Assembly (NCBI RefSeq): GCF_018617485.1
Contig: NZ_JACSKH010000001.1
Location: 186,001 to 250,000, forward strand
From: Exiguobacterium sp. s124
Lineage (GTDB): Bacteria; Bacillota; Bacilli; Exiguobacteriales; Exiguobacteriaceae
Reading direction: 5' to 3'
DNA length: 64,000 nucleotides
Positions within the stretch are counted from its first letter, which is position 1, and every line of letters starts with the position of its first letter. Made by a program: the position numbers and the translations under genes. The notes under the pieces were generated by a model, which saw only the letters and a program-made list of their open reading frames with translations, was not told the DNA's origin and ran no database searches. Of this stretch, positions 9,872 through 12,207 are shown piece by piece.

Positions 9872-10231
9872 ATGCGGAAAAAAGGTCAGCTGGAAATGGA
9901 ACTGAGCGCCCGGATCACCCAATGGGAGAAAGAATACTTGGGTCGCGGGTCATTGACGTGTAAGGCAGACCTGCTTCGGGACCTGGCCATCGTCACGCTC
10001 CAAGGGGTGTTGACGCCGGCTGAGTATGACTTGGCCACCAAGTCGGCAGGTCGCGAGCAACTGAAAAAGTACCGCAACAATCTCGTCGAATCGGGGCGCA
10101 GTCAACTTGAAACGATCGTCGGGCAAGTGCTCGGTCGTTCCATTGTCTCGCTCCACACGGACATCAGTACGAAAACGGGGGAGCGTCTCATCGTCTTTCG
10201 CTTAGATGCACCTTGGGATCAAACCGATTGA
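9872..10231 (+). CDS. DUF2294 / MpsC-like protein
   Basis: 119 aa soluble protein matching DUF2294 (PF10057, named MpsC after the staphylococcal membrane-potential-generating locus). Features are an N-terminal 'LSARITQWEKEYLGRG' helix, the 'LTPAEYDLA' segment and C-terminal 'RLIVFRLD'. Biochemical role is not established; in Staphylococcus the linked MpsAB proteins import dissolved inorganic carbon. ATG 9872 abuts the speB stop with no spacer; ATG 9896 after AAAAAAGG is an alternative start. The sbtA-like promoter at 10228 overlaps the end of this gene. The next gene is an SbtA-type bicarbonate permease, a suggestive pairing. Confidence 0.72.
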   Translation: MRKKGQLEMELSARITQWEKEYLGRGSLTCKADLLRDLAIVTLQGVLTPAEYDLATKSAGREQLKKYRNNLVESGRSQLETIVGQVLGRSIVSLHTDISTKTGERLIVFRLDAPWDQTD

Positions 10232-10256
10232 CAACGAATCGTCGACTTTTTAAAAT
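10228..10256 (+). promoter_or_regulatory. Strong sigma-A promoter for the SbtA-like gene
   Basis: TTGACA at 10228-10233 and TAAAAT at 10251-10256, spacer 17, overlapping the stop codon of the preceding gene. Transcription would begin near 10262. Confidence 0.75.
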
Positions 10257-10261
10257 AAAAG

Positions 10262-10428
10262 GCAGAGACGTGAGCGGAGCGAATGGACGAGTCACTATGA
10301 AGCGTGCTTTCGAGATCTTCTTACGGAGCTACTGACTAATTTAATTAACCGACAGTTGTCGGCTAGACGGAGCGATTATTCGAGCCGTCGGCATACAGCG
10401 CACGCCTTCTTTAGGTGTGCGCTTTTTT
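10262..10428 (+). promoter_or_regulatory. Structured leader ending in attenuator; candidate riboswitch
   Basis: About 165 bases between a strong promoter and an intrinsic terminator just upstream of the Shine-Dalgarno. Visible elements: hairpin CCGAC-AGTT-GTCGG at 10349-10362; hairpin 10366-10389 with GACGG/CCGTC, an AG/AG internal loop (tandem G-A) and CGA-TTAT-TCG. CCGAC (10349-10353) can also pair with GTCGG at 10387-10391, so two folds compete. GCGTGC (10302-10307) is an exact complement of GCACGC (10400-10405) in the terminator 5' arm, giving a possible antiterminator. It does not match the riboswitch consensus sequences I know (SAM, lysine, T-box, TPP, FMN, c-di-AMP, glycine, fluoride, THF). 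Confidence 0.6.
10398..10428 (+). terminator. Attenuator terminator in the SbtA-like leader
   Basis: GCGCACGCC / GGTGTGCGC stem (one G-T), 7-base loop and T6, ending seven bases before the AAGGAGG of the downstream gene. Confidence 0.82.
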
Positions 10429-10448
10429 GTCGCCAAGGAGGAAAACAT

Positions 10449-11405
10449 ATGGAATTGTTTGTATTTCTATTGACGAGCGCTCCCGTCCTTCTATTTGTGA
10501 CGGGTGTAATCGCCGCAGTCGGGAAATCGAATTTGAAGATTCCTGACTCGCTGAGCACGACGCTCAACATTTACTTACTACTCGCCATTGGATTAAAAGG
10601 GGGGATGGGACTCGCCTCGGTATCGCTAGAAGACATCGCCTTACCACTGACCGTCACACTGTTGATTGGCATATTGTTACCGCTCCTCGCGTTTCTTGCA
10701 GGAGGTCTCCTGAAGTTCACTTTCCATGAACGAATCGCCATGGCTGCGACGTTCGGATCCGTCTCGCTCGTAACTTATGTGGCCGCATCGACGCAACTCG
10801 AGCGACTCGGGATTGGGTATGAACCGTTCATGACGACATTGGTCGTCGTGCTCGAAATCCCAGGATTGATTGTGGCGTTACTGTTGTATAACCAAACACA
10901 GGTGATGGGGATCACGGCCACGTCGGGCAAGACGAACTCACTGTCTGTCCTTCGGGATAGCTTATTTTCAAAGAGCATCCTGCTCATGCTTGCAGGTCTT
11001 GTTGTCGGACTCGTAACACCAGACGCGACGCCGCTCAAACCATTCTTTGTCGACTTGTTCCCGGGCGTATTGCTCCTCTTTTTACTCGGTTTAGGGGTAA
11101 AAGTGGGACAACAATTGAAGACGGTACCGTCATATGGACTGAAATTCGTCGCCATGGGAATGCTGTTCCCATTGATTGGGGCATTGGTTGGCTTTTTAGC
11201 GGCGGGTGTCGCTGGTCTTTCGGAAGGAGGAACAATTCTCCTCATGACACTAGCAGCGAGCGGTTCATACATCGCAGCTCCTGCGATGCTACAAGCATCG
11301 GTCCCGGAAGCAAAACCGTCCTTTTATTTGACCCTTTCCCTTGCGGTCACGTTCCCGTTCAACTTATTGATTGGTATCCCACTGTATATCGCAATCGTTA
11401 CATGA
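10449..11405 (+). CDS. SbtA-family sodium-dependent bicarbonate permease (DUF897)
   Basis: 318 aa membrane protein with about ten TM helices. The N-terminus matches DUF897/SbtA: 'APVLLFVTGVIAAV', then 'KIPDSLSTTLNIYLLLAIG' and 'LKGGMGLA'. The second half repeats the fold ('LGLGVKVG', 'AASGSYIAAPAMLQASVPEA'), as expected for an inverted-repeat transporter. The family imports bicarbonate with Na+ in cyanobacteria; the substrate in Firmicutes is less certain. No sbtB-like PII gene is nearby. ATG 10449 follows AAGGAGG. Expression is probably set by the attenuator leader just upstream. A perfect 15-bp terminator stem follows. Confidence 0.82.
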   Translation: MELFVFLLTSAPVLLFVTGVIAAVGKSNLKIPDSLSTTLNIYLLLAIGLKGGMGLASVSLEDIALPLTVTLLIGILLPLLAFLAGGLLKFTFHERIAMAATFGSVSLVTYVAASTQLERLGIGYEPFMTTLVVVLEIPGLIVALLLYNQTQVMGITATSGKTNSLSVLRDSLFSKSILLMLAGLVVGLVTPDATPLKPFFVDLFPGVLLLFLLGLGVKVGQQLKTVPSYGLKFVAMGMLFPLIGALVGFLAAGVAGLSEGGTILLMTLAASGSYIAAPAMLQASVPEAKPSFYLTLSLAVTFPFNLLIGIPLYIAIVT

Positions 11406-11454: not shown

Positions 11455-12207
11455 TCATTGCGTCACTTTTTGCGATTCCATGCATTTGAGAGCGGCCGTC
11501 CAGCTTCCAAAGAGGACGTTGATGGTCGATGTACTCGGTACGTTTCGACCTTCCGCCCATTTTCGATAATGAAGGATGCTGAAGTGGGGCAATTCTTTTT
11601 TCGCAAGCCGGAGGGCTTCAATCACATCTTCCTCATCCCATTTTCGTTTTGGAGGAGCGATATCTAACACGAAAAGAGCATAGCTCCAAGAACCATACTT
11701 TCGAGCGATAGTCGCCACGGTCGGATAGCCGCGTTCTTGCGCCCAAACAGCATAATGTTGGGACGTGAGGCGTTCGAGTTCTTCCGAAGCTTCGATCAAT
11801 GCTTGGATGATACGTTCCTCACTATTTTTAGCAGCGGTTGTTTGAAGTTTGGCTTCGCGGAGTGCATTCGACCATGAACCAAAACGACTGCTGATGAGTG
11901 TGAGAGATGGCGAACGTGTCACTTTTGACCATTCTCGGTACGTTTGACTCGTGAATAGCGTGAGTTCTTCTGCAGCTTTGTTTAACGCACGTAGAATATC
12001 TTCGTCTGAATAATAATGAAACGAAAGCTTGATTTGTGCTGCAACAAGGGCTTCGCGCCACGAACCAAATTGGTGAATGACGGTGGAAAGGGAAGGGACA
12101 TTTTTGTCATGAGACCAAACACTGTATTGTTTGGAGTCAAGTTCTGCGTATTCTTGGGCAGCCAATTGCAAAGCTTGTACGATTTGAGGTCGTGTCCATT
12201 TTTTCAT
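11455..12207 (-). CDS. Protein of four homing-endonuclease-associated repeats
   Basis: 250 aa made almost entirely of four tandem units of about 52-60 residues. Each reads roughly I-x-x-A-L-x-x-A...Y-x-x-W-(S/A)...P-(S/T)...I...(F/Y)GSW-x-x-A-L. Examples are 'PSLSTVIHQFGSWREAL' and 'PSTSTINVLFGSWTAAL'. This is the homing-endonuclease-associated (HNH) repeat, thought to be a helical DNA-binding unit, but no HNH or GIY-YIG nuclease domain is attached. Function unknown; a DNA-binding regulator is an inference. ATG 12207 follows AAGGAG. A three-repeat relative lies at 16534-17112, at the other side of the sugar genes. Confidence 0.72.
   Translation of the reverse strand: MKKWTRPQIVQALQLAAQEYAELDSKQYSVWSHDKNVPSLSTVIHQFGSWREALVAAQIKLSFHYYSDEDILRALNKAAEELTLFTSQTYREWSKVTRSPSLTLISSRFGSWSNALREAKLQTTAAKNSEERIIQALIEASEELERLTSQHYAVWAQERGYPTVATIARKYGSWSYALFVLDIAPPKRKWDEEDVIEALRLAKKELPHFSILHYRKWAEGRNVPSTSTINVLFGSWTAALKCMESQKVTQ

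Follow-up and report, generated by a model that had tools for sequence, protein, structure and literature searches.

Results

Organization of the mpsC-sbtA gap in Exiguobacterium sp. s124

The window analysed here is a 64 kb stretch (64,000 nucleotides) of the Exiguobacterium sp. s124 genome. It contains an mpsC gene and an sbtA-type gene on the same strand, and the gap between them is occupied by an RNA leader. The following features were assigned, in window coordinates:

9872-10231, + strand: mpsC (PF10057, Pfam E 1.7e-34), directly upstream of the leader
10228-10256, + strand: promoter TTGACA-17-TAAAAT, 11/12 consensus matches, overlapping the mpsC stop and conserved in 18 genomes
10263-10335, + strand: 5' hairpin A with a purine-rich AGA/GAG internal loop; its helices show two-sided changes between clades
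10349-10362, + strand: hairpin B (CCGAC/GTCGG), a proposed anti-antiterminator; it pairs in 18/18 sequences and hardly varies
10355-10399, + strand: proposed antiterminator containing hairpin C, assigned from conserved pairing, base-pair probabilities, energies and free folding
10397-10428, + strand: intrinsic terminator, an 11-bp stem followed by T6; it pairs in 18/18 sequences
10436-10441, + strand: Shine-Dalgarno sequence AGGAGG of sbtA, read from the sequence and invariant in 18
10449-11405, + strand: sbtA-type gene (Sbt_1) of the Na+-dependent bicarbonate transporter superfamily (PF05982, Pfam E 2.3e-89)

The proposed antiterminator would consist of a basal helix (10355-10359:10395-10399), a CG/AU loop, GCU:GGC, a bulged A10365, GACGG:CCGUC, an AG/AG loop and CGA:UCG. 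A strong promoter, a leader of about 165 nt and a terminator seven bases before the Shine-Dalgarno sequence had been recorded in a preliminary description of this DNA. All three were confirmed, the promoter being kept in all 18 relatives and the terminator being separated from AGGAGG by 10429-10435. The tandem G-A internal loop mentioned there is the AG/AG loop of hairpin C. The folding energy of the leader lay 4.2 standard deviations below that of shuffled sequences.

Comparison with Rfam 15 returned no match at the gathering cut-off in the whole window and nothing relevant for the leader at E values up to 10, so that no family fits and the leader is still rightly called unclassified. PyrR, TRAP, ANTAR and T-box elements were also considered, and none gave an Rfam match in the leader. 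The gene directly downstream of sbtA, convergent with it (11455-12207, - strand), carries three HNH_repeat (homing-endonuclease-associated) stretches.

Conservation of the leader in Exiguobacterium

Sbt_1 was found in 18 of the 19 genomes of the genus, and the leader was present in all 18 of these, with the promoter, three hairpins and terminator retained in every one. Conserved structure in related SbtA leaders, on which the earlier proposal depended, was thus observed: in the alignment of the 18 relatives, 97% of cells were paired in the proposed fold (hairpins A, B and C and the terminator), with 46 covarying cells versus 16 in shuffles (0/500 shuffles). Compensatory changes in the 5' hairpin distinguish two clades; from CCGACAGTTGTCGG on to the terminator, hardly any position varies. 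Across the Exiguobacteriaceae, MpsC, Sbt_1 and the leader were jointly present in 18 genomes and jointly absent from 20. The leader in Exiguobacterium is therefore a real conserved element.

Covariance models R1 and R2 recovered with confidence only Exiguobacterium leader loci. The weak matches outside the leader that were inspected (L112, L122, L141 and L142) look coding and were rejected. A pattern scan over 84,980 species gave 22 matches, 14 of them in Exiguobacterium (including E. aestuarii, E. profundum and E. aurantiacum); the other eight, scattered over unrelated genomes, were taken as chance. A search for DabA in the Exiguobacteriaceae found none save one sub-threshold match, and the family therefore seems to be without the mpsAB form. 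That DabA-like match (19.5 bits, G000:C9:779-1288, L218) lies in the same genome as the window, on a different contig.

Alternative pairings within the leader

The preliminary description had regarded the leader as a switch-like, ligand- or ion-responsive RNA controlling an SbtA-type permease. The existence of a conserved, unclassified attenuator is supported; the exact switching pairs it named are not, and another alternative pairing proved to be the conserved one. It had paired CCGAC (10349-10353) with either of two GTCGG copies (10358-10362 and 10388-10392). These letters are present, but pairing with the second copy is unsupported, because in G013 (L007), which retains CCGAC and hairpin C, GTCGG at 10388-10392 is replaced by GCCAG. 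It had also pointed to GCGTGC (10302-10307) as an exact complement of the 5' arm of the terminator. The complementarity to GCACGC in that arm is real; an antiterminator role is unsupported, since GCGTGC is missing from 12/12 leaders of the other clade and is changed in L004 and L007.

The conserved alternative was found from base-pair probabilities of transcripts ending inside the 5' arm of the terminator. Here 10355-10359 pairs with 10395-10399, followed by 10362-10364 with 10390-10392, leading into hairpin C, at an average pairing probability of about 0.46 versus 0.39 for hairpin B. In the 18 genomes this antiterminator was paired in 99.7% of cells, whereas slid partners reached no more than 49%. 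One of its pairs changes on both sides and three change on one side, so that the basal helix, GUUGU:ACAGC, which is nearly invariant and shows little covariation, rests more on invariance than on covariation. The antiterminator and hairpin B are mutually exclusive, and A10397-C10399 is common to the antiterminator and the terminator. Before completion of the terminator, the antiterminator (-22.6 kcal/mol) is favoured over hairpins B and C (-20.7 kcal/mol); with the terminator, B and C reach -40.9 kcal/mol. Counting against a switch, the antiterminator takes away just three terminator base pairs.

A leader motif across Bacilli

Elsewhere in Bacilli, mpsC precedes sbtA at 19 of about 26 loci examined, and the gap usually contains a leader of the form GG(KWG)-8 bp-AA-4 bp-loop-4 bp-AG-8 bp-(ARA)CC, with a terminator immediately after it. 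A first alignment of 17 such leaders showed two-sided changes in 10/14 pairs. A covariance model built from Bacilli leaders, R3, was searched against 399 sampled Bacilli genomes and gave convincing sites in 43 of them (44 sites, with the L091 locus of G217 included at E 0.001). The downstream gene, assigned by tblastn and confirmed for a subset by Pfam and NCBIfam, was sbtA at 18 sites, mpsA/dabB (NADH dehydrogenase subunit 5, NF006373) at 24 and another gene at two; DabA comes after mpsA at the tested locus L205. MpsAB/DAB is a transporter unrelated to SbtA. Weak R3 matches at L209 and L210, which have no inorganic-carbon gene downstream, were excluded from this tally. In an alignment of 45 distinct sites fitted to R3, all 12 P1/P2 pairs showed two-sided changes, with 87 covarying cells versus 18 shuffled.

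The scanned Bacilli loci gave no Rfam match at the gathering threshold; a permissive scan of two leaders gave bglG-cis-reg as the top match below threshold, arising mostly from the terminator. At two loci with the order mpsA-mpsC (L215 and L216), a GG..AAGCC leader with a terminator precedes mpsA without an R3 score; the leader folded better than its own shuffles at L216 and not at L215.

Several further observations were made at these loci. The leader hairpin occurs as tandem pairs between mpsC and mpsA at L178, L179 and L195 (the second L195 copy being weak). At L191:1501-1549 the first gene after the motif and its terminator belongs to DUF6671 and the next ORF is IlvD-like; this may represent a further target. 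The motif at L196:2064-2109 (- strand) follows mpsC and precedes an unidentified gene that may be broken; an Lgt-like ORF lies downstream of that gene. Two ORFs close to the RNA, each preceding mpsA (L173:830-1474 and L183:914-1441), share a similar LxxGMEExLEQ stretch and matched nothing in Pfam or NCBIfam. A cobalamin riboswitch lies downstream of an sbtA gene at L074:3269-3453.

Relationship of the Exiguobacterium leader to the Bacilli motif

A search of the window with R3, filters off, gave a best score of 5.9 bits in the wrong place, and the window leader is not a member of the motif as the model defines it. Primary sequences differ: the invariant GG:CC basal pairs of R3 and the A-rich 3' side of its basal loop are absent, the window having GUUGU:ACAGC and CG/AU. 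When folded freely, the window leader, L202 and L165 nevertheless gave almost the same dot-bracket strings, as in the first two of these:

Window: (((((..(((.(((((..(((....)))..))))))))..)))))
L202: ..(((..(((..((((..((((....))))..)))).)))..)))..

The window leader shares the hairpin plan, as captured by a post hoc descriptor (a short basal helix and a small internal loop, then about 8 bp with a bulge, a 2x2 purine loop AR/AG, 3-4 bp and the loop), and the place of the motif: it adjoins mpsC, precedes an inorganic-carbon transporter gene and overlaps the terminator arm. The Exiguobacterium relative L018 has an AA/AG loop exactly as in the Bacilli motif. The shape descriptor, drawn up after the hairpin had been seen, gave a single match in 64 kb, at the leader. 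Shuffling gave 0.25 matches per window, and 4/2000 shuffled leaders matched. A slightly looser version matched 9 of the 45 Bacilli sites without mismatch and 24 with one allowed. As plan and place fit, the covariance model fails and the descriptor is post hoc, the window leader is called only an architectural relative of the motif; common descent is plausible, and homology is unproven.

Association with mpsC

mpsC is present in every one of the 43 motif genomes, versus 225/399 of the sampled Bacilli overall; the 43 are related, so this co-occurrence does not represent 43 independent events, and many genomes have mpsC without the motif. By tblastn, mpsC lies directly upstream of the motif at 26/44 sites. 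Another 12 genomes have mpsC on the strand of the motif, 4.4-5.6 kb downstream, as would fit an order mpsA-mpsB-mpsC. In G203, and for the listed match in G351, mpsC is on a different contig from the motif. Among the 43 genomes, mpsC is usually in the same operon as the motif. By contrast, co-location of mpsC with mpsAB has been stated to be confined to staphylococci (PMC6689103); in many of the sampled Bacilli the genes do lie together. An mpsC deletion is reported to leave the growth of S. aureus unaffected, and MpsC was found dispensable for transport (PMC6689103).

MpsC-family genes reach 11 copies per genome in the 399 genomes, most apparently without the RNA, and the family therefore probably has further roles. 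The AlphaFold model of MpsC (pLDDT 90.6) matched no fold in the PDB with E below 0.001, which neither supports nor opposes RNA binding.

Discussion

We consider it probable, though with considerable doubt, that the leader attenuates transcription of inorganic-carbon uptake genes in the manner of a ribonucleic antiterminator (RAT), with MpsC most likely the factor, and that the Exiguobacterium form has diverged. This reading draws directly on conservation, structures and their covariation in the alignments, mutually exclusive pairings, gene context and co-occurrence. When OFF, the leader would fold into hairpin B (10349-10362) and the short hairpin C, and the terminator would halt transcription before sbtA. 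When ON, the 45-nt antiterminator (10355-10399) would disrupt hairpin B and capture the three bases with which the terminator stem begins, so that transcription would enter sbtA. Low CO2/bicarbonate would favour the antiterminator. The leading candidate for the trans-acting factor is MpsC, which is encoded in the same operons. Weighing against a part for MpsC are the many genomes that have the gene without the motif, the normal growth of the S. aureus deletion mutant and a fold search that returned no relative pointing to binding of RNA. That switching occurs in cells, that inorganic carbon is the signal, that MpsC takes part and that the Exiguobacterium hairpin and the Bacilli motif share a common origin are what we infer. 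The wider context, with the mpsC slot and the same hairpin plan before two unrelated transporters, makes inorganic carbon the likely theme, and speaks for protein-controlled antitermination at least as well as for a riboswitch. In three S. aureus strains, the mpsA transcript is reported to be 1.7-2.5 fold lower in 5% CO2, significantly so in one (PMC6689103). This fits antitermination governed by inorganic carbon, and we met no mechanism for the change in the literature consulted.

The Exiguobacterium leader might instead be an unrelated attenuator in the same slot, resembling the Bacilli hairpin by convergence or chance. Its own promoter, hairpins A and B without a Bacilli counterpart, the absence of sequence likeness and the failure of R3 to detect it all fit such an origin. 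We nevertheless regard it as possible but rather unlikely, given the shared slot beside mpsC, the similar free-folding plan, the AA/AG variant in L018, the terminator overlap and the rarity of chance matches among shuffled leaders, as judged with a post hoc descriptor. A riboswitch, in which bicarbonate, Na+ or a related metabolite would bind directly to the RNA with no protein involved, is in our view unlikely. It would account for a compact hairpin with conserved purine internal loops, for targets that transport one substrate group and for the lack of a fitting Rfam family, but the hairpin is simple, and a single stem with two small loops is more typical of protein-bound antiterminators. The constant association with mpsC also suggests a protein partner.

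It is quite improbable that there is no regulation at all and that partial constitutive read-through of a conserved terminator sets the level of sbtA. This reading gains from a strong terminator in which no more than three base pairs are competed for; against this, the upstream structure is strongly conserved and covarying, the dedicated promoter is conserved, and the same arrangement precedes two unrelated transporters. Leader-peptide attenuation, with a ribosome stalling on a small ORF to control the terminator, draws on small overlapping ORFs in hairpin A of the window (MDESL and MKRAFEIFLRSY). Their start codons and frames vary among relatives, and this mechanism was rejected as very improbable.

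Because the shape of the proposed "on" hairpin recurs before two unrelated inorganic-carbon systems, the data suggest that Bacilli use RNA to tune their supply of CO2/bicarbonate. A bolder reading, which we put forward tentatively as possible rather than probable, is an uncatalogued Bacilli-wide RNA regulon, in which a RAT-like leader controls both uptake systems, MpsC is a new RNA-binding antiterminator responsive to CO2/bicarbonate, and the Exiguobacterium leader is the most diverged known form. A conserved attenuator before both sbtA and mpsAB makes it directly testable how heterotrophic Bacilli sense and regulate their CO2/bicarbonate supply. The leader also offers a possible first function for MpsC.

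The genes behind the leaders belong to the MpsAB/DAB and SbtA inorganic-carbon uptake systems. The known biology of these systems is that of the proteins, and we met no report of an RNA leader in the literature searched. The Na+-I riboswitch (DUF1646 motif) and the nhaA Li+ riboswitches are likewise leader RNAs ahead of ion-linked transporter genes (PMC9337991, PMC9646797); none of these families matched the window leader in Rfam at E values up to 10. A close parallel is the RAT of LicT/SacY/BglG (RF03530, bglG-cis-reg), also an imperfect hairpin interrupted by two small internal loops; it precedes a transporter gene, and its 3' end runs into the 5' arm of an intrinsic terminator. RF03530 was the best sub-threshold match of one Bacilli leader (37.7 bits, E 1.4e-5), a score that comes largely from the terminator hairpin and is far below the gathering score of 80. 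It gave no match in the window leader, which thus falls outside the RAT covariance model but shares the RAT overlap of antiterminator and terminator 5' arm, through A10397-C10399. Known RAT targets are sugar PTS genes, whereas the targets here are inorganic-carbon genes, with mpsC as the companion gene.
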